Of a stretch of DNA of 55,560 nucleotides, positions 1,311-34,687 are shown in pieces. This DNA is from a virus. A program made the translations under genes and the position numbers. The notes under the pieces are model-generated. The model was not told where the DNA came from. It searched no databases and saw only the letters and a list, made by a program, of their open reading frames with translations. Where the stretch lies: the IMG/VR virus record IMGVR_UViG_3300033146_001559, positions 1 to 55,560 of that record, one strand, 5' to 3'. Position 1 is the first letter of the stretch, and each line of letters opens with the position of its first letter.

Positions 1311-2045
1311 CCCGTGACATCCACACCAACTTTCGCCCCATCTAATGACAACCTGAAAAGTAGTGGTAAATCATTCATGGATAACTTGATTGGGTGTCAC
1401 CCAATGGGTATCCTAGAGCAGAGTGGGGTAATGTTAGAAAAATTACTGGGAATTGACCTACTATATTATCGCCAAAATTTTGACCCAAAAAAAGCACACC
1501 CCATATACGGAGATGAGACCTCGGAATTTTTGGATCCATATCTGATTCGGGGTCTTGTGCAGATGAATACGGACAATACTCTTCTTTCTCAGTTTGGTAT
1601 TGAGGCCGAAAATGATATTGATATTCAAATAACTTATAGTGGATGGGAAACAATTTTTGGTAGTGGTGTCAAACCACAGGCGGGTGATATGTTCGAAGTA
1701 AAGGACCTTCTATGTAATCGACCTGATGGATTCACTAAATCATTATATGTGGTCACGTCGCAGGGTGATGACACACAGTTCGACGTATCCAAACGATGGA
1801 AAATAGCAGGAAAACGTGCCGATTATTCATTCCTCCCCAACCAACCTCGGGAAAAGAGCGGTTCCCCATTATTCGCCAGTAAATTCGTTGGGGTGGTTGA
1901 CAATAAAACTCTTGAGCCTATCATCGATGAGGGGTTTGAGAATCCAATAGAGCGCGATATTGACGATATTGCTGAAGATAACTTCAAAAACGAAAATAGT
2001 AATGTGTATGGAGGTGGTTATTACATAGACGAAGATGATATGTAA
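1308..2045 (+). CDS. 14: Neck protein, T4 gp14-like
   Basis: 245 residues, close to T4 gp14 (256). gp14 joins gp13 in the neck ring that seals the filled head and receives the tail. Matching features in the same order are an early LLYYR motif, LLSQFGIEAENDIDI around residues 93-107 (T4: FFSKFGFEVRDEVTL), a PQAGDMFEV turn, and a long acidic C-terminal tail. It faces the gp15-like gene across a shared promoter, and gp14 and gp15 act together at the head-tail joint. It converges with the protease gene, 13 bases away, with no visible terminator between them. Confidence 0.65.
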   Translation: MPVTSTPTFAPSNDNLKSSGKSFMDNLIGCHPMGILEQSGVMLEKLLGIDLLYYRQNFDPKKAHPIYGDETSEFLDPYLIRGLVQMNTDNTLLSQFGIEAENDIDIQITYSGWETIFGSGVKPQAGDMFEVKDLLCNRPDGFTKSLYVVTSQGDDTQFDVSKRWKIAGKRADYSFLPNQPREKSGSPLFASKFVGVVDNKTLEPIIDEGFENPIERDIDDIAEDNFKNENSNVYGGGYYIDEDDM

Positions 2046-18652: not shown

Positions 18653-18661
18653 TTTTCAAAC

Positions 18662-18752
18662 TGCGGGGATCACATTAGTGGTTCATGTGACCAGTCTCAT
18701 AAGCTGTCGTCCTTTATCGGGCATGTGGGTTCGATTCCCTCCACCGCAACCA
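18662..18752 (+). tRNA. tRNA-like gene, anticodon CAT (Met or Ile)
   Basis: Acceptor TGCGGGG/CACCGCA (one mismatch), D stem CACA/TGTG with TTAGTGGTTCA loop, anticodon loop CTCATAA, T arm GTGGG-TTCGATT-CCCTC (one mismatch), and encoded ACCA end. The variable region is unusually long (about 17 bases) and can form GTCC/GGGC. The anticodon stem has one C-T mismatch. A CAT anticodon suggests Met or lysidine-type Ile, which is odd with a long variable arm. Confidence 0.65.
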
Positions 18753-18755
18753 TAT

Positions 18756-18809
18756 GTATCGGGGGTTTACCCCCGCCAGTTCTAGGTTCAATTCCTAGTC
18801 GATGCACCA
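18756..18809 (+). ncRNA. tRNA-like minihelix without D and anticodon arms
   Basis: Fifty-four bases. GTATCGG (18756-18762) pairs with TCGATGC (18799-18805), followed by discriminator A and CCA. A perfect T arm CTAGG-TTCAATT-CCTAG lies at 18782-18798. Where the D and anticodon arms should be there is only a short G/C hairpin (Gs up to 18765, TTTA, Cs from 18770). It starts four bases after the preceding tRNA. It is either a deleted tRNA or a deliberate acceptor/T-arm mimic. Confidence 0.5.
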
Positions 18810-18813
18810 CCAC

Positions 18814-18921
18814 CTAAACATATGTTTTGGCACATACTTTATTACCACAGTCCCAGAATCGATCATAACCATTGTTCAGCATGTTCTGATAACCAGATAG
18901 TGTGGGGTTCGAAACTGTAAC
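18814..18921 (-). pseudogene. C-terminal fragment of a gene split by the TnpB-type insertion
   Basis: A coding-like stretch with no start codon at its 5' end: ...NPTLSGYQNMLNNGYDRFWDCGNKV..., ending in TAG at 18814. Its upstream edge coincides with the left end of the decayed element. On the far side of that element an ATG overlaps the thyA stop codon (ATGA near 19370) and opens a short hydrophobic reading frame, which could be the original N terminus. Inference from layout; the family is not recognised. Confidence 0.35.
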
Positions 18922-18992
18922 CTAAAAACTTACAATATTAAAAAACATTGACATTTTTTATTTTTTTTTATGTAGAATAAGTTTAATTAAAG

Positions 18993-19150
18993 ATGAAGAC
19001 TAAACCAAACATGATCACAAGAATAGCGAATTCGAAACGGACGATGGTATAGTTCACCCTATTCCTTTTGAATTAGATTACGAGCCAACATTAGAAGAGT
19101 TCCAAGAACTTTATGATGATTGGTTTAGAATATTAGAAAGAAAGGCTTAA
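18993..19150 (+). pseudogene. Small frameshifted passenger reading frame inside the decayed element
   Basis: The ATG at 18993 gives 19 codons, ending in TAG. A one-base shift continues into a clean acidic frame with VHPIPFELDYEP and LEEFQELYDDWFRILERKA, stopping at 19150. A TTAATTA box precedes the ATG (three bases). It does not resemble TnpB and sits where the TnpB body would be. Function unknown. Confidence 0.35.
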
Positions 19151-19155
19151 ACTAA

Positions 19156-19275
19156 GTGACAGAACTGAATGCTTCTATTAATTTAAAGCAACTTTATACC
19201 GTGAGTTCCACGGGAATTAACGCCTCGGGAGATTGGAGTTCAGATCAGCTTACGCTGATTTCAGCCAGTCGTTGA
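19156..19275 (+). pseudogene. tnpB: TnpB C-terminal remnant with putative omega-RNA region
   Basis: Thirty-nine codons in one frame: TELNASINLK (the last catalytic block of TnpB is D-N-A-xx-N), then STGINASGDWSSDQ, the usual TnpB C-terminal tail. In IS605-type elements this 3' region also encodes the guide (omega/reRNA) scaffold, which runs into the right-end hairpin. Here it runs into the hairpin at about 19297-19314. No RuvC nuclease is left in this copy. Confidence 0.65.
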
Positions 19276-19369
19276 ATGAGGAAGAAAACATAAATCTACT
19301 TGTAGATTTTGTAAGTTTTTTAGAACGGACGCATGCAATACAACAACACCAATAATCTAACCAAAACAC

Positions 19370-20245
19370 TCATACCGCAACGGGGGCTTTGATTGAACTC
19401 ATTGGGGTGTAGCCCTCAATGTCGGTATCACTGTGCTCCCAGTCAAATATGCTGGTGAAGTTGTCTGTAGTAATCCGTGGGGGTGGTTGTGGGGTGCGTG
19501 ACAGCTGTTCAATTGCCTGATCCATGTGGTTCTCATACAAGTGGACATCACACCCAAATGCAGTCAACACGCCCTCCTGTAATCCAGCCTCTTTTGCGAT
19601 GAGGTGGAGAAGTAATCCGTAAGATGCAATATTGAAGGGAGCACCGAGGAAAAAGTCCCATGAACGCATGTTGAACGTGAGGTCAAGTGTTTCTCCGTTC
19701 GACGTCAACTGGAACACGTAGTGACACGGGGGTAGTGCTGTATGGTTGAGCCCCATGGGGTTCCAAGCCATACAGATCATTCGGCGATCCAAAGGGTTCT
19801 TCTTCAGTGTTTCGATGATATTGGCAAATTGGTCAATACCATCCGAATCTGCCATGCTATCCCAGCTGTATGGATCATGGAAATTTCTCCAGCTCGCCCC
19901 ATAGATACATTCGCCGAGGTAATCTTCACCCCGCATCTTCTTAATGGTCTCTGGGTCATTACCGTATGGCACTTTCGTCGGACAGCACCAATCAGACCAG
20001 ATCATACACCCTCGATCTTCGAACCATTTCTTAGAGGTGATTCCTTTAATAAATCCTTCCAGTTCAACCTTCATGGTTTTCCATGAAACTCGTTTTGTGG
20101 TTAGCATTGGAAAACCGTCAGACATATGGTGTTGAAGCATTACTGGTGGCATTTTATATGCACCCGTTCCAGTTCTGTTATCCTGTCTGGGGGATCGGGT
20201 TAGTTGACGAAGAATATTAAGGTATTGTGTTTCAATGTCTTGCAT
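19370..20245 (-). CDS. thyA: Thymidylate synthase
   Basis: 291 residues, full length for ThyA (264 in E. coli). It methylates dUMP to dTMP with methylene-tetrahydrofolate. Family motifs are all present: QDNRTGTGA, a FPMLTTKRV segment, the catalytic Cys174 in ALPPCHY, a QLTSNGETLDLTFNMRSWDFFLGAPFN folate/dUMP region in two adjoining blocks, and DVHLYENH near 235. Together with the class II ribonucleotide reductase it supplies DNA precursors. A strong early-type promoter ends six bases before the ATG. Confidence 0.97.
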   Translation of the reverse strand: MQDIETQYLNILRQLTRSPRQDNRTGTGAYKMPPVMLQHHMSDGFPMLTTKRVSWKTMKVELEGFIKGITSKKWFEDRGCMIWSDWCCPTKVPYGNDPETIKKMRGEDYLGECIYGASWRNFHDPYSWDSMADSDGIDQFANIIETLKKNPLDRRMICMAWNPMGLNHTALPPCHYVFQLTSNGETLDLTFNMRSWDFFLGAPFNIASYGLLLHLIAKEAGLQEGVLTAFGCDVHLYENHMDQAIEQLSRTPQPPPRITTDNFTSIFDWEHSDTDIEGYTPMSSIKAPVAV

Positions 20246-20279
20246 GTCGTTATAATAAGTGATTTTAGTAATTTGTCAA
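20246..20279 (-). promoter_or_regulatory. Early-type promoter of thyA
   Basis: Minus strand: TTGACA (20274-20279), 16 bases, TATTAT (20252-20257), six bases, ATG. Predicted start point is the A of the ATG. The -35 box overlaps the 3' end of the upstream gene. Confidence 0.75.
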
Positions 20280-20797
20280 ATCTTTTTCAGTTTTAGTCTG
20301 TCTTTGGAAAACTTTCTGAGCTTTTCGAATTCAATTCTCGTTAATTCGTCCTCCCGACCGAACCGTTGATAGATATTATAATGGCATTCGGTGGGTTTGG
20401 TTACAAATGACTCGGTGTCCACATACCGATTACAGAAATTGATGACGTCCGTTCGTAGGATGAAAACAAAGGAATCCTCGCGTTCAAACACAATATAGTC
20501 AGCATCCCCGTAAAGCCACCCAGCGTGCCCTGTGATGCCTTTAAACTCAATCCAGACATACTCGGTGTCTAAATGGGAATCATTGCGTCTGAGGCGTTTC
20601 TGCGCCTTTAAATCGACTGAGTGTATTTTGTTATTGAATTCAAGTCGGTAGTCAATGTGATGATAAATATCCTCCTCATCAGTTGAATACCTGAACTCTA
20701 TACCGTCAGTTGCAAGAACTGCTTGCTCAAACTGATGTGTTGCTGATTTATCAAGAGCGAATGCTCGTTGACTGGTGTCTCTTTCGTTTAGTTTCAC
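20276..20797 (-). CDS. Putative PD-(D/E)XK nuclease-like phage protein
   Basis: 173 residues with a GTG start. The core HIDYRLEF...HSVDLKAQKR (about residues 47-69) has the D...D-x-K arrangement of restriction-type nucleases, followed by VWIEFKGITG and GWLYGDADYIVFE. Similar proteins of unknown role occur in many phages. TTGACA and a -10 hexamer lie at the early-type spacing, placing +1 one base before the GTG. Activity is inferred from the motif only. Confidence 0.65.
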   Translation of the reverse strand: MKLNERDTSQRAFALDKSATHQFEQAVLATDGIEFRYSTDEEDIYHHIDYRLEFNNKIHSVDLKAQKRLRRNDSHLDTEYVWIEFKGITGHAGWLYGDADYIVFEREDSFVFILRTDVINFCNRYVDTESFVTKPTECHYNIYQRFGREDELTRIEFEKLRKFSKDRLKLKKI

Positions 20798-20832
20798 TAT
20801 GGACAGTGTATCACACCAGCCATGGTTGTCAA
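20798..20832 (-). promoter_or_regulatory. Early-type promoter of the nuclease-like gene
   Basis: Minus strand: TTGACA (20827-20832), 16 bases, TACACT (20805-20810), seven bases, GTG. Confidence 0.6.
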
Positions 20833-20834
20833 AT

Positions 20835-20866
20835 AAAACCCCGTGACTGATCTATCACGGGGTTTT
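20835..20866. terminator. Strong hairpin terminator after the interrupted tRNA
   Basis: Perfect 12-base stem (20835-20846 with 20855-20866), eight-base loop, G/C-rich base and A/T run at the ends. Read leftward it begins at the tRNA CCA end and closes with a T run. Confidence 0.8.
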
Positions 20867-20971
20867 GGTGGGAGTGTCGGGGTTCGAACCCGAAACCTAG
20901 CAATTATTTTAGATTCACTTGTTAGTGTGAACCCCAAAGAGTTGCCCGCTCTACCGTTGAGCTACACTTCC
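20866..20971 (-). tRNA. tRNA gene with about 31 extra bases in the anticodon loop
   Basis: Minus strand. Acceptor GGAAGTG/CACTCCC (one A-C mismatch), D arm GCTC-AACGGTA-GAGC, variable loop AGGTT, perfect T arm TCGGG-TTCGAAC-CCCGA, encoded ACCA. The anticodon stem GGCAA/TTGCT pairs fully but encloses 38 bases, not seven. The excess contains a seven-pair hairpin (GGTTCAC/GTGAATC with one G-T). Removing 31 bases could leave CTCATAA (anticodon CAT, Met) or CTCTTAA (CTT, Lys). Everything outside the loop looks like an ordinary functional tRNA. Confidence 0.7.
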
Positions 20972-20977
20972 ATAATT

Positions 20978-21547
20978 TTACTCGGATTCCAATGCATATC
21001 GAAATTCCTTTACACCCTGTCCGAGTTGATAATCGGGGGTCTTCAATGAGTCTACCAAACGAATAAGTGCTCCAACATGAACGGAGTATTCATCACCATC
21101 CCGTGCTACGTGCTCAGTCGTGTATGACTTATCGAAGTCAGTCTGTCTTGTAGTTACATAATCACCTTCAACCGTAGCTTCAGATTTAGCGTGCTTAATC
21201 GATGATAATCGCAGTAGATCTTCTGCCATCATCAGGAGAGCACTCTCATCCTCATGGAATGCCTCATCCATATTGGTAGAGTCGAAGCCGACCTTAGTGG
21301 TGGCTTTAAAACCATCCACACTGATTGTTCCTTGAGATTCATTGAAATTGATATCTTCAAATGAAACCTGAGTTCCACCATCATCACCGAGGATACCCCC
21401 AGTAGATTGGTATTGTCGGAGATCATCATTCAGTGTCAGGGCAACACGCTCAATCAATCCCTCGATGGTATTGGCGGTCAGGATTTTATTCTCCCGCACG
21501 CCAATACCCTCAAGGACAACACCAATCATCTTATCAAATTTACTCAT
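20978..21547 (-). CDS. Hypothetical protein
   Basis: 189 residues, not recognised. It starts MSKFDKMIGVVLEGI, like other unassigned late genes here; the middle is acidic with short beta segments (VSFEDINF, GTISVDGFKAT), the end helical. ATAATTA is five bases before the ATG, so it is probably made late and may be virion-associated. It sits directly upstream of the interrupted tRNA. Confidence 0.7.
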   Translation of the reverse strand: MSKFDKMIGVVLEGIGVRENKILTANTIEGLIERVALTLNDDLRQYQSTGGILGDDGGTQVSFEDINFNESQGTISVDGFKATTKVGFDSTNMDEAFHEDESALLMMAEDLLRLSSIKHAKSEATVEGDYVTTRQTDFDKSYTTEHVARDGDEYSVHVGALIRLVDSLKTPDYQLGQGVKEFRYALESE

Positions 21548-21555
21548 GAAACTAA

Positions 21556-21776
21556 TTATTGTTTTTGTGTATCCATGGCGAATTTCGCAATGAATGCATC
21601 AGCTACTGTGTTCGCATATTGAATACCAGCAGTTGCATATTTGGTTGACTCGTTTCATCCAATACCATCATGGATGCATGGTGACTAAATGCATTCTTCC
21701 AAATCTCTTGTGCTGAGTATGACACTCCTTCGTTGTGATTATCAATACGCTCCTGTGCAATTTCTTTCTCGTTCAT
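21556..21776 (-). pseudogene. Frameshifted small early gene
   Basis: From the ATG at 21776 the frame runs 57 codons (MNEKEIAQERIDNHNEG...) and stops at 21603. A one-base shift after about codon 44 gives a continuous frame with KYATAGIQYANTVADAFIAKF, ending at 21556 (about 73 residues in all). The composition on both sides is alike, so one base has probably been lost around CAACCAAATATG. A very good early promoter precedes the ATG. It resembles short unassigned phage helical proteins. Confidence 0.55.
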
Positions 21777-21810
21777 GTCAATATATTACCACGGGGTTTC
21801 AAATTGTCAA
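21777..21810 (-). promoter_or_regulatory. Early-type promoter
   Basis: Minus strand: TTGACA (21805-21810), 16 bases, extended -10 TGGTAATAT, six bases, ATG at 21776. Confidence 0.7.
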
Positions 21811-21890
21811 CTTCTATTGTGAGATATGCGTCAAACCAGACCGTTGTTAAAAACCTCAAAAATCTACAAGTAGATTGATTCAATTTTCAA

Positions 21891-22979
21891 CTATAATCCC
21901 CGACGGTAAACTAGGGAGACTCCTCGATCCAAGATATTTTTTGATGCATTACAATCAGCATGGTCAGTGTGATTGCACTTCGTGCATCGAAAAACGTCTT
22001 GAGTTTGTCGATTCATCCTATCGGTATGACCACATGATCTACACATTTGGGACGTATAGGCTGGGTTTACTGATGTAAATCGAACACGGTTCTCTTCACA
22101 ATTTCGTTCCAACCTGTCAAGCCAATATGCATAGTTCCATGAACCAATAGACTTTCGTAAAGACTTCGATAGCTTTCGCTTCTTCTTAGTCTTAAAATTC
22201 ATATTCTTCAACCTTTCAACTACAATCCGTTGTAGGTTTGGGTTCTTATCAAAAATTTCTTTAGCAGTAGTGTTAATGTAATGACGAAGGTAATTTCTCA
22301 ATCGTTTCTGCCTCTTGGAGCCGTGCCGACACCCATTAATTTTATTAATAATGGATTCTATTTCATTACCATAAAACTCTGCATCAGAAGTGACCGCCAG
22401 TGTTTTGATTCCAGTATCAATGCCGATCACTTTACCTTCTTCTTTCTTCAAGCCTGTATCGATTTCAAACACAAACTGCACATAGTCTTTCGTGATGATA
22501 TATGAGTTAAGTCGTTTTCCTTTAGATTCCCATTTGTTAAATTGTTTGTGTTTTTTAATCGGAAGCAGAAGTTTTATTTTGTTACCAATGGAACCAAGCT
22601 TTAGAAAGCAATCAAAGCTACTTTCGGATTCTTGAAGATCGGCAATGGTTGAACTACAATACATCCGATTACCTCTATGTAGGGGTTTTGATATATTCTT
22701 TGGTTTGTGTTTCCACCTCACCCTCACTGCGAGAATCATATCCAGAGCTTCCCTCGCGGCAACTTTTCTCAGCCGTGCCGACATCCAAGTATCGTCTTTT
22801 GTTATATCAACAATGGGCTTGAGTAATTTAGCTTTGGGTGGTAATTCTTTTAACTCCCAGAAATAATCAATGAATAGATTCACCACATTTCCATATTCGG
22901 ACAGCACTTCAGCCAACTCAGATTTCTTCTTCTGGGTTGTGAATTTTAATGTGCATTTTGACGCCCGAACGAACTTCAT
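21891..22979 (-). CDS. tnpB: TnpB, RNA-guided RuvC nuclease
   Basis: 362 residues. RuvC residues are intact: Asp188 in VIGIDTGIKT, Glu255 in RIVVERL, Asp342 in HADCNASKN. A zinc ribbon uses Cys313/316 (CRSC) and Cys332/335 (CTKC). TnpB proteins cut DNA next to a target motif under control of an RNA made from the 3' end of the gene; the hairpin after the stop (near 21865) would end that RNA. The C terminus (VSLVYRRGL) is shorter than in most relatives. Unlike a typical insertion sequence gene it has the phage late box ATAATTA five bases before the ATG. Confidence 0.92.
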   Translation of the reverse strand: MKFVRASKCTLKFTTQKKKSELAEVLSEYGNVVNLFIDYFWELKELPPKAKLLKPIVDITKDDTWMSARLRKVAAREALDMILAVRVRWKHKPKNISKPLHRGNRMYCSSTIADLQESESSFDCFLKLGSIGNKIKLLLPIKKHKQFNKWESKGKRLNSYIITKDYVQFVFEIDTGLKKEEGKVIGIDTGIKTLAVTSDAEFYGNEIESIINKINGCRHGSKRQKRLRNYLRHYINTTAKEIFDKNPNLQRIVVERLKNMNFKTKKKRKLSKSLRKSIGSWNYAYWLDRLERNCEENRVRFTSVNPAYTSQMCRSCGHTDRMNRQTQDVFRCTKCNHTDHADCNASKNILDRGVSLVYRRGL

Positions 22980-22995
22980 ATTAATAATTATAGTT
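22980..22995. promoter_or_regulatory. Palindromic late box in front of tnpB
   Basis: ATAATTAT (22984-22991) lies five bases from the tnpB ATG leftward and also five bases from an ATG (22996) rightward. The same one-box divergent arrangement is seen at 16187-16202. Confidence 0.6.
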
Positions 22996-23081
22996 ATGGG
23001 TAAACAAAAAATACGTGTTAACCCATTTATTTTTATTCTTTTATATTTTGGAGATTATTTGAGGTATTGTAAGTTTTTAGG

Positions 23082-23567
23082 CTACAATTTTGAACCCATT
23101 GATTCCTCCTCCACCTCAACATTCTTCTTCAACAACTCAACCGTGTTCTTAAATGCCTTTTCGAGGACACCCTCGGGTAGTTCCAAGTCATAAACATCAC
23201 CAGAACGAGCCATCCCTGCCATCACACAGTCCGTGATATATTCCAATACGTCCACGAGATTGACATCTTCAGGAACCCCGTCCTCTTGTGCAAGGTGGTG
23301 TCTCCAGATCTTGCGGTGGTTGTCCCACCATCCAGTGTAGCCATCTTCAAATCCATTAGCGAAGTCATCGTGGAACCAGTCAATCTTGGTGAGTTTGTCT
23401 TGATCGTGAATACCAGCGGCTTCTAGGATCATGTTATTAAAGAATCCAAGTCCTTTAACTACATCCCCAATATGCTGGGCTGAGCTGGCAAGAAGTGTTT
23501 CCTTCGTGGTGTTTTTAAAATCACACGTTCGTGAGTCGGCCGTTGCTGATTTCTTAATCGTTATCAT
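23082..23567 (-). CDS. Conserved phage protein, HD/DUF5662-like
   Basis: 161 residues from the ATG at 23567. It has GIHDQDKLTKIDWF (H-x-x-x-K), a WWDNHRKIWRHHL histidine cluster, and VLEYITDCVMAGMARSG, a pattern seen in conserved phage proteins that look like small HD or DUF5662 domains; activity unknown. Its last codons (SMGSKL) lie in the left end of the TnpB element, so the natural C terminus has probably been replaced. The early-type promoter is perfect. It shares its fold type with the next gene. Confidence 0.65.
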   Translation of the reverse strand: MITIKKSATADSRTCDFKNTTKETLLASSAQHIGDVVKGLGFFNNMILEAAGIHDQDKLTKIDWFHDDFANGFEDGYTGWWDNHRKIWRHHLAQEDGVPEDVNLVDVLEYITDCVMAGMARSGDVYDLELPEGVLEKAFKNTVELLKKNVEVEEESMGSKL

Positions 23568-27420: not shown

Positions 27421-30400
27421 CTATGTAATTTCGCATGCACCACCTGAACACGAGGCACCTGCCATTGTGTCAGCATCTACGTGGACTGCGGATTCTTCGT
27501 ATGCCTTTGACCAATCAACATCAACATATTCACGTTTCAGATCACAGAAGATCTTCCAGTTAGTCACATCCTTCAGACAGTATGTCATACGTTTCACATC
27601 GCCTTCAAAATATCGATCGGCGAACTGAAGTGCTCGGCGGATCCAGTCTTGTTTGAGGTCATATTGTGATGAGGTGTCGGATAGAGCATCATCTGCATCA
27701 TCCAGTTTTTGTTCGAGCTTGGCGATCTTGGTAGATAATTCATTTAGCTCTGGTGAGTATGACGCCGTGTATTCGATCACCTCATCGACATTATTCATAG
27801 TCATCTTATCACTAATGATATCTTTAATGGTCTTATACTGAATATTCGCCTGTGATAGCTCTTCAAGGAGCGTGTCATACTTTTCCTGTGCGACATCCAC
27901 TTCACCGTTTAATTGCTCAATACCGAGCGCATGGCTACATGCAGACCATAAATTATGGTCGAACGCTCGGAGACCTGCTGTAATGAGTCCAGATGCAAAT
28001 ACCGTTGCGTCACCATATTCCTTGACCATCTCTGCTGGAGTATAAACGGTTGAGAATGGTGATTGTGGGTAATCCTTATCACCCGATGAAGGTAGCATGG
28101 AGACTCCCGTGAAATTATCTTGGTTAGTCCACAGGTAATCGAATACCTCGTCCCATTCATCTTCCTTGACGGAAATCGTATTGGACACATTGTGTCGAAG
28201 ATATGGCTTATTACTTAGTTCTGGGCGGGTTCCGTGCTCTACCCAGTTCTGTTGGGTTAGTTTTACGTTTTCTAGTAGTTCAATTGCACCCAACTGGTTC
28301 TTAACAATAGCGCCTTTTGGCACCTCGCATACAAACGAGATAACATTATCCGTATCATTCGCCGACCACACACTCTTTTCGATAGCAGATGGATTAAACA
28401 TCCCAAAATATTGAGCTGGAAACTCAAGGGAGTTACATTGTATTCTCCTAACGTATTTTCTGGAGTGGTGAGGATGCACCCCCGAGGAGGTTCCAAGTAG
28501 ACATGACGAACTACCTTCTGGCTTCACACACGTCGTTCTAGCTGAACGACTTACACCAATTAAATCGGCTACTAGCGCGTTAGTTTCCTTAACAATCTCC
28601 GCGCCTTTGCGTTGAATTTCTGGATCCAGAGTGATAGCAGGATTATCCATAATCCCCGTAATACTAACCCCGAGTAGTGCCTCTTTATCGGTTAGTTCTT
28701 TTGTTGCTGATGCGATATATTTGAAATCAGTATACCCCGCTTGTAGTGTTCCAATGATTGCCGCTTCACGACAGCATTTATAGAACTTCTCGGCAGTGTC
28801 CGTGTATTTACCGTTGATTGTGCTGAGGTTACACATCTGGAACCCTTGGCGGCCATCTGGGAGGACGGGTCTGAATGAGATCTCACAGTTATGAACAATA
28901 ACCCCATTACAACTGAATGAGCTAGATTCGGGAACCGTGCAATCATACACTTCCTCCTCACCTACATATCGAACCTCCTTCACACCAGCCATTCGGCCAT
29001 TTGATAGTTGAACTATTGTTGAGTCATTGATATCTCCGATATTCACCCAGCTATCATCAAACCGTTGAATTCTGTGATCCGCCGTTCCAATCATCGGGTC
29101 ATAATCGAACTGGTGTTTATCATCAGTCGGGTCATGTATTAACTTATCAAAAGTTTGAACTACCGTTTCTTCTGTCAGCCCGCCAGCCAATTGCTTAACT
29201 TTGAGTCGTGTATCATTAAAATCATCAAGAACTAATTCATACACTTTCTTTGTTCCAGTTGACCAGAAACCACATTCGGTTGATTCGTATAGTGCTCCAT
29301 ATATTTCGGTTTTAAATTGGACACCGACTAAGTCGGAAACCAACTTATCGCCCATATCTGTCTGAATTTTGTTCCGACCAGAAACACAACAAGGGTTGAC
29401 CCCACTCTCATTATCATCCATAAAAACGAATGCGGGTTCCCCATACTCACGGACTCGTTCTTTAACCATATCAAATTCCTCTTTAGTGGAATCCCCACGG
29501 ATGAACACGGCGGAGTTATTAGAGCGTGCCCTCTGTGGGTTGTCGTTGAACCAATTTCCTGTTTTAGCATTCATAACTTCTTCATCATCAATGGAGAAGA
29601 TAATAATCAATGCGGAGTTGTGTGATACTGATTCGAATTTAGAGTCCTTTTGTCTCACCGTGAAGGCGTGAACGTCGGCGACCGATATATCATATGTTCG
29701 ACCATCTTCGATTCTCTCTGTTTTACCAATCCGAGAAAGCTTGTAATCCGAAGGTAATAGGTTGTCGCCTACCTCAACACTAGCACCACTACGGTCTGTT
29801 ACCAATGAGAATCGGGACGTCTCTGCTTCGATGATCGAGGTAGACATCCATCCCATATTTTCAACTAAATGATCATACACGAGCCACTTGTGGTTTGGTG
29901 TTGAGACCTGATAGCCGTATTTTGACGTGATTTTAACTAACGACTGCACGCCGTTATCCATTACCTCAGTCACTGGATATTCCTTACCAGCATACAACAC
30001 GGTGTCATCCAAAGTTAGTTCACTGATCTGTTTAAATGACCCATTTCCGAGCTTAACTTCGGATTCATGAAAAAGACAACGACGAACGCCACCACTCAAA
30101 ACGGCGTCTGAAAGATGGCAGATAATATCAAGTATATTGATCGGTTTCAGTTTATTACTAAACTCCCCCTCGGTGAAATCCTCATCCTTCAATCGTGCTT
30201 CGATGACCTCTCGGATCAACTCAACTGACCTATTTAGTCCGTTAGATCCTGGAGCCTTAAACCCACCACTGATAAGGGCACCCGCTGGTCGGATATCAGA
30301 ATAATCGAATTCTACGACTTTTCCACCCCATCCACCAAACCCGTCAATACTGACGGCTCCGAGGTATGATGCCATCAATACATTGATGCAATCTGCCCAT

Positions 30401-30849
30401 CCCTCGATGGAGTCCTCGGGCTTGAATACTACAGTGTCCCCCGATACGGGACTAATATCACCGATCTGCTTGACATGGTGCTTCTGGATGCTGGCACCTG
30501 CACCACATCCACACAAAAGCAGGTGCAGAAGTTCACCAAACACATCATCCCTGCATACATTACCAAATGCACAGTTAAACATCTTTGCATTCCCTCGTTC
30601 AATTGGTGCTCCCCCGAATTGGAGTGCCCTCTGTGAACCGAGGATCCGCTTACCGAATAACCCATCCTTCGCTTCTGCGATGATTTCTGCTAATTTGGGG
30701 GTCTCTCCGATTTGTTTTGCATACTTTCGTTCGTGCATATCAAATACACGATCTACTGTCTCACCCCACGTCTCTCTGCGTTTTTTGTCTTCATTGAATA
30801 GGGCATAGCGACTATACCGCACATATTCAGACATTGCTTTAATACTCAT
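27421..30849 (-). CDS. nrdJ: Class II (adenosylcobalamin-dependent) ribonucleotide reductase with two inteins
   Basis: 1142 residues before splicing and 821 after. It reduces ribonucleotides using a B12-derived radical. Class II RTPR-type motifs: MFNCAFGNV, LLLCGCGAGASIQKHHV, DSIEGWADC, DIRPAGALISGG, an ANNSAVF-like SNNSAVF, NPC-CEI once the second intein is removed, CNLSTINGKY, and a C-terminal CSGGAC cysteine pair. Two inteins interrupt active-site motifs (residues 258-411 and 488-654). TTAATTA lies four bases before the ATG. The phage would depend on host or imported cobalamin. A long noncoding or degenerate stretch lies upstream. Confidence 0.92.
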   Translation of the reverse strand: MSIKAMSEYVRYSRYALFNEDKKRRETWGETVDRVFDMHERKYAKQIGETPKLAEIIAEAKDGLFGKRILGSQRALQFGGAPIERGNAKMFNCAFGNVCRDDVFGELLHLLLCGCGAGASIQKHHVKQIGDISPVSGDTVVFKPEDSIEGWADCINVLMASYLGAVSIDGFGGWGGKVVEFDYSDIRPAGALISGGFKAPGSNGLNRSVELIREVIEARLKDEDFTEGEFSNKLKPINILDIICHLSDAVLSGGVRRCLFHESEVKLGNGSFKQISELTLDDTVLYAGKEYPVTEVMDNGVQSLVKITSKYGYQVSTPNHKWLVYDHLVENMGWMSTSIIEAETSRFSLVTDRSGASVEVGDNLLPSDYKLSRIGKTERIEDGRTYDISVADVHAFTVRQKDSKFESVSHNSALIIIFSIDDEEVMNAKTGNWFNDNPQRARSNNSAVFIRGDSTKEEFDMVKERVREYGEPAFVFMDDNESGVNPCCVSGRNKIQTDMGDKLVSDLVGVQFKTEIYGALYESTECGFWSTGTKKVYELVLDDFNDTRLKVKQLAGGLTEETVVQTFDKLIHDPTDDKHQFDYDPMIGTADHRIQRFDDSWVNIGDINDSTIVQLSNGRMAGVKEVRYVGEEEVYDCTVPESSSFSCNGVIVHNCEISFRPVLPDGRQGFQMCNLSTINGKYTDTAEKFYKCCREAAIIGTLQAGYTDFKYIASATKELTDKEALLGVSITGIMDNPAITLDPEIQRKGAEIVKETNALVADLIGVSRSARTTCVKPEGSSSCLLGTSSGVHPHHSRKYVRRIQCNSLEFPAQYFGMFNPSAIEKSVWSANDTDNVISFVCEVPKGAIVKNQLGAIELLENVKLTQQNWVEHGTRPELSNKPYLRHNVSNTISVKEDEWDEVFDYLWTNQDNFTGVSMLPSSGDKDYPQSPFSTVYTPAEMVKEYGDATVFASGLITAGLRAFDHNLWSACSHALGIEQLNGEVDVAQEKYDTLLEELSQANIQYKTIKDIISDKMTMNNVDEVIEYTASYSPELNELSTKIAKLEQKLDDADDALSDTSSQYDLKQDWIRRALQFADRYFEGDVKRMTYCLKDVTNWKIFCDLKREYVDVDWSKAYEESAVHVDADTMAGASCSGGACEIT
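28888..29388 (-). other. Mini-intein 2 in NrdJ (NPC/CEI site)
   Basis: Residues 488-654 (167 aa). It starts CVSGRNKI, has a TADHR block B-like motif (589-593) and ends VIVHN before Cys655. The flanks rejoin as NPC+CEI, the conserved class II active-site motif. No homing endonuclease domain fits in the length. Confidence 0.85.
29617..30078 (-). other. Mini-intein 1 in NrdJ (GGVRR/SA site)
   Basis: Residues 258-411 (154 aa). It starts CLFHESEV, has block B STPNHKW (316-322) and ends ESVSHN before Ser412. The flanks rejoin as GGVRR+SALI, the conserved extein sequence. The splice nucleophile downstream is Ser here and Cys for the other intein, so the two are different types. No endonuclease domain. 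Confidence 0.85.
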
Positions 30850-31683: not shown

Positions 31684-31738
31684 TTTGTTAAATACCAGAC
31701 GACTACAGTATGAAATAATATAGTCAAATATTATTTCT

Positions 31739-32948
31739 TCAAGCTAAATTAATTAACTTCGGGATCACTGCAAATCCCTCTATCCCATCAGCATTGAATG
31801 CATTTGGGAGTGCTTTTCTCATAATATTGTAAGCTCCATTGACGTCAGCATTGATTTTTCCAAATAATTTGGAGTTGAACATACCACGGGTAGCTCTGTA
31901 TCCTTTATATTCTTCATGTTTCTCAATTTTTTTCCAAGTCGAGGAATGAACATTTAGATGTGTAGGATTCCTCCTGCAACCTAACTTCAATCCCAACCAG
32001 CTTACATTTATATGTTAACATTGAAATAAAAGTATCAAATGGAATCTGCACAAAATTCTGATTAGTTCTTTTTCCCAAATTTATCTCTTGTTTCCATCCT
32101 TTGTTCTTGCCAATAATAAGCAAGGAAACATCGTTGGAATCTAAATGATTAATAATTTTGGCACTAATCTTGTGCATATAATCTTTGATTTTTCTATTTC
32201 TTTTGTCTTGTAATTTCTGTAATTTTCTACTCCATTTTTTGTTATTTTTTGTTTCTAATTCAGCCTGAATTGTTGACTTCTTTTTGTTGAAATATTGATT
32301 TATTGACTTCAGTGGGTTGCCGTTGAAGATGAGGGGCGAAGCCCCGTCTTCAAATACCACCGTGGCGAGGTTGGATAATCCAATATCAATTGATGCCGTA
32401 TTTGCCTCTGAGCGAAGCTCTTCCTCCACAACCTCATACACTATCTCAACCACGAAGTGGTTGGCTCTAGGTATGATTCTGGCTTGTTTTACATCACCCC
32501 ATTCTTCAATATTCGTTGGTATTTTTAAAGTTGTCCCAGACAAAGAAATCACTCCATTTTTACCAAACTCCTTTTTAGAAATTGCCCCTTTTTCAAAAAT
32601 AACAACCTGTTGTCCCTTTTCCGTATCCTTGTATTTAGGGATTTTGGGTGGTCCCGTGAAGCCAACTTTCGATTTATTGTATGATTTTATGGATGCAAAG
32701 AATGCACGGTAATTCTGGTCAACCAGTTTGATGACTTGGTTGCAGATTTTCTTCTTCAGACCACATTTTTCCCAAATTTCTTCCTTTTTGATTTCTTTGT
32801 ATAGTGAAGAAAATCCAATATATTTTCCATTTTCGAAGAAATACTGACGAGCAATATATAAACAGGAATTATATAAGTTTTTGCTTTCAAAGCACAACTC
32901 ATAAAGTTCTGGTGTTGGTTTTAAAATATGTTGCTCTACTAATTTCAT
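31739..32948 (-). pseudogene. tnpB: IS607-type TnpB, frameshifted in an A7 run
   Basis: The first frame (MKLVEQHILKPTPELYELC...) includes the RuvC Asp region (ASIDIGLSNLATV), SLLIIGKNKGWKQE and EESYTSKCSFLDLEK, then stops. A second frame continues IEKHEEYKGYRATRGMF and INADVNGAYNIMRKALPN to the stop at 31739. The switch point is a run of seven A residues (31927-31933 as T on the plus strand); one A fewer gives the normal EKIEKHEE sequence. The gene is either dead or read by slippage on the A run. The zinc ribbon has Cys near residue 335; the second Cys pair is not obvious. Confidence 0.8.
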
Positions 32949-32949
32949 A

Positions 32950-33525
32950 TTATTCGTTTAAAAATTTTTCAATGTGTTCTTTTCTTTTTGCCTTTCTTTT
33001 CCCATACAACCTTGCGGAAAATGAATAAATGATTGAGATTAGATCTTGCATTAAATCCTGCTTATCATCATCGGTGAAGTTGACTACGTCAATTGAGATG
33101 TTGTTTTTGTTTAATAATGTTTCAATATAATTAAACCCAAATCTCGTTAAACGATCTTTATTTTCAACTACAATTACATCATAATCACTTCGATCTAAGA
33201 TTTTCTGTAATGTTTTTCTGGTATCATTCATACCAGAACCAACCTCCTTGAATGATGCAATTACTTTATACCCCTTCGTTGATGCATATTGCTCAAGAAA
33301 AAGCTGTTGATCTTTCAGTGATTCTTTCCTATTATTGTTCGAAACTCTGGCATATATGATAGCTCTTTTAACCTCGGATCTATTTTCTTCATCAACTTTG
33401 ACAAAAATTGAACCACTTGGTGAGGTGAAGGCATTTTCGATTTTCCCTTCCTTGAACCACTTCCATGCAGTTCTATAAACAATGGAATTGTTCTTCGCAT
33501 ACTGACTCAACTTGATGTTCATCAT
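32950..33525 (-). CDS. tnpA: IS607 TnpA serine recombinase
   Basis: 191 residues. An N-terminal MerR-like helix-turn-helix (LSQYAKNNSIVYRTAWKWFKEGKI) precedes the catalytic domain RAIIYARVSNNNRKESL, with Ser in RVS about residue 62, then LDRSDYDVIVVENKDRLTRFGF and a C-terminal basic helix. Length and order are those of IS607 transposases. It starts two bases after an open ATG pair near an ATAATTA sequence. The gene is intact. Confidence 0.92.
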   Translation of the reverse strand: MMNIKLSQYAKNNSIVYRTAWKWFKEGKIENAFTSPSGSIFVKVDEENRSEVKRAIIYARVSNNNRKESLKDQQLFLEQYASTKGYKVIASFKEVGSGMNDTRKTLQKILDRSDYDVIVVENKDRLTRFGFNYIETLLNKNNISIDVVNFTDDDKQDLMQDLISIIYSFSARLYGKRKAKRKEHIEKFLNE

Positions 33526-33579
33526 ATTTAATTATCACATTGCTCCATATAAAACAATAAAAAACTACATTTATTTTAA

Positions 33580-34687
33580 CTAGTTATGACACTCATCCAA
33601 ATTCTGAATATAATGAGTATCTTTAAGATCAGCTGGATCATCAACAATCCCCGTGGTTGTCTCTCCATCAATCACAAATGGGGTCTTTGGTATACTATCC
33701 ACCACAAATTCCTGACCATTCTTCATCCTGTTTCTCATCACCAGTGGTATACATACCAAGTTTACCGAGAACTCGCTTGAGGTCACTAAAATCAACAATG
33801 ACAGTTCCAGTGGCATCGATGCCCACACACTCACGCCTGAATCGATCTCCCGATTCTTTGTGTGTTTCCTTTCCAGATGGGTCCGTTTCGTTTAGATCAC
33901 TCCACCCAAACTCCTTACAACCAATTACTTCATTCAGAAGTTCTGGCGCATATGTCTTCACTATGGCGCGATACCGTTGACCTAGATCACCCCGAAACCC
34001 ACAATCAAACCATCGAATATCAATCGCTTCTGGGAAATCCCAGATTGTATTATCATCGCGGTAGTAGTCGATCCGAGTTGATGCATCATACGTCTTAATA
34101 ATATGGCACGTGGAGGTTCCTTTCAGATCCATCACGGCACTGGCTAAGATCGCACGGTGTAGCCCCTGATCATCTTCATCAAAGAAGAAATCCATGTTTG
34201 AAATACCACGGAAGAATCCAATCTCAGCACTCTGTAAGAAATTTCCAATTCGAGACACGCGCAGCCGCGAACCATTTTGGAGTGAAATTAAATTTCGGCG
34301 AGTATCTGATCGGTGGCGGATCGGTGGTTGCCCTAGAATCTTCTGTAAGGTGGCATCCACGGACATTCTAACGAGTTCTGGGCAATATGATACCACATTG
34401 GCATCATACCCCGCCTCAGTGATCATACGGTATACGATCACTATCTTCATCAACAGTGTTTTACCCACCTGTCTATTCGCAATTGTCAGTGAATTACCAT
34501 CATACATTGCCTGTAGTGCCAATTTATGTTGGGGTGACAATGGCGTCGGTTCATCAATGAACGCCCATAAGTATTTCTCAGCAAACTCTATGATACTACC
34601 ACACTTCAGGTGCTTGATATAAGCACTATCAAGAACTTCTTTGAGTGACTCATCCCCATAATATTTAAACTCTTTATAATCAGACAT
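33580..34687 (-). pseudogene. Second, diverged terminase-like ATPase; 3' end frameshifted
   Basis: The 330-residue first frame carries a terminase-type ATPase: LSPQHKLALQAM Q-motif, Walker A IANRQVGKTLLMK (70-80), and FFFDEDD (167-173) in the Walker B position. It stops at 33695, but another frame continues NGQEFVVDSIPKTPFVIDG to 33580; a one-base change around 33715 would join them to about 367 residues. I see no gp17-type nuclease motif. It differs clearly from the gp17 gene at 16.4-18.3 kb. An early-type promoter precedes it. IS607 lies immediately downstream. Confidence 0.62.

Follow-up and report, generated by a model that had tools for sequence, protein, structure and literature searches.

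Two loci with matching ends

The virus record IMGVR_UViG_3300033146_001559 is a single record of 55,560 bases, and the window analysed here is this whole stretch. It encodes a T4-like terminase that is about 26-32% identical to those of known phages, and no close phage relative of the virus was found, terminase search included. Two loci in the window are bounded by matching ends. The first, at 18905-19328 (424 bp), is a reduced element without a nuclease gene. The second, at 21841-23097 (-), is an intact element, with a 362-amino-acid TnpB as its single gene. Their parts are given below, where F1 and F2 stand for the two guide-RNA scaffold families and the TnpB lineages that go with them, and R1 for the covariance model of the F1 scaffold family.

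18905-18937 (+): left end of the reduced element, IS607 type, GGGTTCGAAACTGTAACCTAAAAACTTACAATA; aligns to IS607 left ends without gaps
19010-19150 (+): broken small reading frame (EFETDDGIVHPIPFELDYEPTLEEFQELYDDWFR) without a start codon; a homologue lies just upstream of tnpB in the virus locus L032
19156-19275 (+): the last 39 codons and stop of a TnpB of the F1 lineage, left as a remnant; alignable to DLNASINL..TVSSTGIKACGE of L032 and of L037, a contig from a metagenome-assembled genome (MAG)
19198-19328 (+): complete F1 guide-RNA (omega/reRNA) scaffold, 131 nt; R1 match of 125.9 bits, with 35 of 35 pairs standard
19293-19308 (+): 3' hairpin AATCTACTTGTAGATT (helix 6); variable in sequence and conserved as a helix among F1 scaffolds
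19306-19328 (+): right end of the reduced element, ending in ..TTTTTTAGAACGG; holds an imperfect inverse of the left end
19329-19348 (+): presumed guide ACGCATGCAATACAACAACA, flanking DNA, from its position beyond the right end
21821-21840 (-): presumed guide TCTGGTTTGACGCATATCTC of the intact element, from its position beyond the right end
21841-21925 (-): F2 guide-RNA scaffold over the TnpB C-terminus, ending in ..GTTTTTAACAACGG; conserved at codon level with L002, a relative in another virus
21861-21876 (-): 3' hairpin AATCTACTTGTAGATT of the intact element, absent from L002
21891-22979 (-): intact TnpB, 362 amino acids, F2 lineage; matches NF040570 and PF07282, with the RuvC triad D188/E255/D342
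23065-23097 (-): left end of the intact element, GGGTTCAAAATTGTAGCCTAAAAACTTACAATA; identified by its match to the reduced left end and by alignment to IS607 ends

The left end at 18905-18937 (+) agrees with that at 23097-23065 (-) in 30 of 33 positions. This 33-nt pattern is found nowhere else in the window and occurs 0 times in shuffled sequences. The right ends, 19290-19328 (+) and 21879-21841 (-), match at 33 of 39 positions (blastn E about 1e-6), and both carry the hairpin TCTACTTGTAGA. A preliminary description of the window had proposed two loci with the same ends on both sides, and this is borne out. GG is present at both termini of both loci, within GGGTT.. on the left and ..AACGG on the right. 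The element termini are the last G of AACGG, at 19328 in the reduced element and 21841 in the intact one, and the guides begin immediately beyond. Neither guide has a second match within the window.

Four copies within a single Moraxellaceae genome define the boundaries of an IS607 element with an F1 scaffold, namely (A)GGGTTGCAAACAGTTAA.. and ..TTTTTGGAACGG. Both left ends in the window begin at the GGGTT of those ends and align without gaps to them and to L002, and the Moraxellaceae right ends terminate in ..AACGG, as both loci do. The homology to IS607 ends is strong at the reduced locus and weak at the intact locus taken alone, where the assignment leans on the match to the reduced left end. 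According to the literature, IS607 elements end in GG, insert at GG and carry imperfect inverted repeats unequally spaced from the ends (PMC6188088; PMC10711439). The GG termini and the unequal repeats are seen at the window loci. At the reduced locus, 18924-18938 and 19306-19320 form an imperfect inverted repeat (93%) with unequal distances to the ends, and at the intact locus the repeat is partial only. No serine transposase TnpA lies between the ends of either locus, so both are non-autonomous and IS607 derivatives at most.

The shared left segment could also be read as a phage promoter, given the hexamers present in both copies (TTCAAA-17-TACAAT and TCGAAA-16-TACAAT). However, the segment is confined to these two loci, its first base is that of the IS607 left ends fixed by multiple copies, and its inverse is found at the right end. 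We consider a promoter in place of a transposon end the least probable of all readings. The two are in any case compatible, as an IS end may contain a promoter.

Scans of viral contigs with a 17-mer of the left end or an 18-mer of the hairpin returned 15 loci, none of which had a TnpB motif or a second end, and these were set aside as chance matches.

The window also has an IS607 element of its own, at 31700-33560 (-), with a serine TnpA (32953-33525) and a third TnpB (31926-32948). This TnpB belongs to yet another lineage, and it meets an early stop after a run of seven A and continues in another frame, through a frameshift or an assembly error. The ends of this element are unlike those of the two loci. 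A similarity between 18954-18999, in the reduced element, and the DNA upstream of this TnpA (E 0.002) lies in T-rich sequence and was given no weight.

As for the interior of the reduced locus, the remnant frame begins with GTG at 19156 and runs to 19272 plus a stop. The last 39 codons of a TnpB are thus retained, as first described. They resemble the C-terminus (DLNASINL...TVSSTGIKACG) of a TnpB lineage other than that of the intact TnpB, so that "reduced copy" is an accurate name for the ends of this locus and a wrong one for its inside. Searches of phages and plasmids by tblastn with 38-41 amino acids of the remnant gave nothing, or chance matches only.

The small frame (19010-19147) lacks a start codon and reads as frameshifted. 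It is similar to an open reading frame (ORF) of about 40 amino acids directly upstream of the F1 tnpB in L032 (8089-8202, -), with 52% identity over 29 amino acids (E 2.7e-6). The small conserved ORF has no PHROG match, and its matches to Vibrio phage proteins and phage helicases were rejected as chance level. The preliminary description had this frame replacing the nuclease body. Judged by its homologue, it probably belonged to the ancestral element from the start, which suggests an ancestor in the order left end, small ORF, tnpB, right end, with the tnpB body later deleted. The locus has effectively been pared down to its two ends plus a guide RNA. Upstream of the scaffold, TTGACA (18948) and TAGAAT (18973) lie 19 nt apart, a spacing beyond the limits of the promoter scan, and were not used.

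Two scaffold families and two TnpB lineages

The first lead to the F1 family was a weak blastn hit to a Moraxella bovis plasmid element (NZ_CP030243) with a serine IS607 transposase and a TnpB. The alignment spans the entire scaffold, through ..TTTTTTAGAACGG. A gapped pattern built from the window and Moraxella sequences found the virus TnpB locus L032, the MAG contig L029 and the virus contigs L033 and L034. Of 119 Moraxellaceae genomes, 19 contain an R1 match, in most cases following genes for serine TnpA and TnpB. F1 TnpBs are also found in another virus (L032) and in a MAG (L037). At F1 loci the 3' end of the scaffold is the transposon right end, with the guide beyond it.

The F1 RNA structure is well supported. 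Over 26 sequences, 93.5% of the cells are paired, and 26 of the 35 pairs have double-sided changes. Covariation reaches 0.435, against 0.18 in shuffled and at most 0.115 in slid alignments, with the alignment fitted to the model, which somewhat favours the structure. The window copy was part of the R1 training set, and its score of 125.9 bits is not independent. At column 30/89, both bases of its pair differ from those in every close relative. With both ends and an intact, covarying scaffold, the reduced locus could supply a guide RNA without encoding any protein, which agrees with the earlier proposal.

The intact TnpB scores 120.7 bits with NF040570 (cut-off 100) and matches the PF07282 zinc-finger (TNB) domain, and its catalytic triad D188, E255 and D342 is kept in L002. 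An intact TnpB had been described at this position and is present. From the triad and the zinc-finger domain, it is predicted to be a nuclease rather than an inactivated regulator. Its best solved-structure matches are Cas12f proteins. In the virus collection, the only close relative found is L002, 70% identical and located in a 40-kb virus contig, and a distant one is L019 (27%). No relatives were found in cellular genomes by the patterns used. L002 is also a TnpB-only element, which starts with GGGTCGGTAACAG and ends with AACGG. Between it and the window, 13 of the 14 last TnpB codons are identical, compared to a background of 52% (P 0.0015), as is expected where a guide RNA overlaps the gene.

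The preliminary description had further suggested that a guide RNA from the reduced locus could serve the intact TnpB, so that one phage would hold a nuclease system spread over two loci. This idea draws on the presence of both loci in one genome, their matching ends, the identical hairpin TCTACTTGTAGA and a similar 3'-terminal architecture. The comparison of the scaffolds came out against it. R1 gives the 3' end of the intact element 13.4 bits (E 0.2), compared to 125.9 for the reduced locus, and reciprocally the F2 model gives the reduced locus 21.4 bits, compared to 127.8 for F2. The 13.4 bits arise from the terminal hairpin and end, features reported in almost all TnpB scaffolds studied (PMC10278001). 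The hairpin is thus general to these scaffolds, and it is free to vary within F1 and between the window and L002. F1 and F2 have only the terminal hairpin in common and are otherwise unrelated scaffold families, and neither has a match in Rfam, even at E 5.

The proteins show the same division. Aligned over 408 columns, the L032 and Moraxella F1 TnpBs have 37.5% identity, and the intact TnpB shares only short patches of similarity with F1 TnpBs. With scaffolds of two families and TnpBs of two lineages, use of the reduced-locus RNA by the intact TnpB appears unlikely, and we rate the two-locus system as a whole very improbable. The two loci are probably co-mobilised relatives rather than partners.

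Solo F1 scaffolds and the fate of the reduced element

Solo F1 scaffolds without tnpB were found in three further contigs (L034, L049 and L055), giving four contigs with the window copy, two of them with complete scaffolds. These low numbers stem from searches by pattern and by handle. In L034, a portion of the scaffold core is missing. The contig of L049 has no TnpB-domain match and carries a T4-like terminase. In L055, at 1501-1644 (-), the GG of the right end falls exactly where a tRNA-Asp gene starts, and the presumed guide is the start of this tRNA. The MAG from which L055 comes is labelled Altiarchaeales and holds an F1 TnpB on another contig (L037), with uncertain binning. An apparent solo copy in Moraxellaceae (L066) was discarded for an assembly gap of N, and other apparent solo Moraxellaceae copies are truncated or degenerate.

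The best explanation, to which we give a probability of roughly 0.55, is that both loci are non-autonomous elements with IS607 ends in a T4-like virus, the intact one TnpB-only and the reduced one a guide-RNA-only deletion derivative of F1, with a solo RNA loaded in trans by an F1 TnpB. The reduced locus would be an F1-lineage element after deletion of the TnpB body, with the small ORF broken and the ends and full scaffold kept. Since the ends are shared, either element may be moved by one transposase, which would be an IS607 serine transposase acting in trans. The solo RNA, if transcribed, would carry the guide ACGCATGCAATAC.. and be loaded onto an F1 TnpB that the host or a co-infecting element makes. 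It would then direct cutting of the uninserted site, favouring the retention and spread of the 424-bp element. The intact TnpB, working with the F2 scaffold and guide of its own element, would do likewise for that element alone. From what is known of TnpB, such elements are expected to be maintained in a population when their guides direct cleavage of sites that lack the insertion. For ISDra2 TnpB, a cognate reRNA from a separate plasmid works (PMC8612924).

Several points weigh against this explanation. The intact left end by itself is only weakly related to IS607 ends (shuffle P from 0.016 to 0.25). The two proteins returned by a TnpB-domain search of the window are the intact TnpB and the truncated TnpB of the IS607 element, and no F1 TnpB is among them. 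At the window's TnpA-carrying IS607 element, ends of the type seen at the two loci are not recognisable. Two of the three other solo scaffolds are less complete, with 69 and 85 bits. Lastly, the structure may have been retained merely through recent loss of TnpB. No virus sibling with an empty site for either element was found among relatives sought by terminase.

The main rival is a dead relic, that is, a functionless deletion remnant in which the scaffold persists through its overlap with the right end and the short time elapsed. The lost TnpB body and the frameshifted, startless small ORF fit such a remnant, as do the truncated F1 copies in cellular genomes, several of them degenerate, and the partly lost core of L034. 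On the other hand, all 35 pairs are kept and at least one is exchanged on both sides, while the protein content has decayed, and solo scaffolds recur in the four contigs. We take a relic seriously as an alternative, and consider it less probable than the trans-loaded guide-RNA element.

A wider claim would be that solo F1 elements are a recurring viral class. Such elements would be protein-free, a few hundred bases long, and would keep a working scaffold that acts in trans with the F1 TnpB of a host or co-infecting element. They would spread by directing cleavage of sites that lack the element, some of them conserved, like the tRNA-Asp start in L055, and give their virus an edge over siblings without carrying a nuclease. 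We hold this extension to be rather unlikely. Structurally intact solo scaffolds across several virus contigs would imply that small mobile elements can spread guides as a dispersed library, intermediate between transposon nucleases and multi-guide systems. Furthermore, the presence of two unrelated TnpB/scaffold modules within near-identical ends in one genome suggests that ends and nuclease modules are exchangeable.

Known systems and other features of the window

TnpB guide RNAs are well studied, usually together with the adjacent nuclease, and solo guide RNAs have been mentioned for IscB and small IS605 derivatives. In the literature searched, whose coverage left out key subscription papers, no account of intact solo guide RNAs of IS607 type in viruses was found.

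The closest known systems are the IS607 TnpA/TnpB elements (Moraxella bovis NZ_CP030243; ISXfa1, PMC10711439), which share with the window loci the GGGTT.. left and ..AACGG right ends, the GG termini, the F1 scaffold and a guide outside the element. Unlike them, the window loci have no serine TnpA, the reduced one also has no TnpB, and the intact one has an unrelated TnpB/scaffold module. Ends-only derivatives of TnpB elements have already been described (PMC7290912). These PATE-like IS605 derivatives are likewise short and gene-free, and their mobility is assumed to depend on a transposase acting in trans. The reduced locus differs in being of IS607 and not IS605 type, and in retaining a full covarying guide-RNA scaffold.

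IS607 TnpBs guided by RAGATH-18-derived RNAs (PMC11061315) also have a structured 3' RNA beside them, whereas the F1 and F2 scaffolds have no Rfam match. Their target-adjacent motifs are G-rich (AGGAG, GAGGG; PMC11061315), and the G-rich left flanks in the window are roughly compatible with this. Finally, the intact TnpB resembles Cas12f-like TnpBs (PF07282) in its TNB domain and structure matches. In contrast to Cas12f, it sits within transposon ends, and no CRISPR array was seen, none having been searched for.

Elsewhere in the window, a 1142-amino-acid ORF at 27424-30849 (-) is similar to ribonucleotide reductase and contains two mini-intein-like inserts, with the Pfam intein splicing domain just below the cut-off. 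A second terminase-like ORF, at 33698-34687 (-), has no Pfam match and ends shortly before the beginning of the IS607 element. A 103-nt tRNA at 20869-20971 (-) has approximately 30 extra bases in the anticodon region, possibly an intron, and is reported by Rfam and not by ARAGORN. Lastly, tRNA-like sequences at 18661-18810 (+), near a called tRNA-Asn, fall below the Rfam thresholds, one of them with a CCA end and a CAT anticodon-like loop. This degenerate tRNA cluster sits just upstream of the reduced element.

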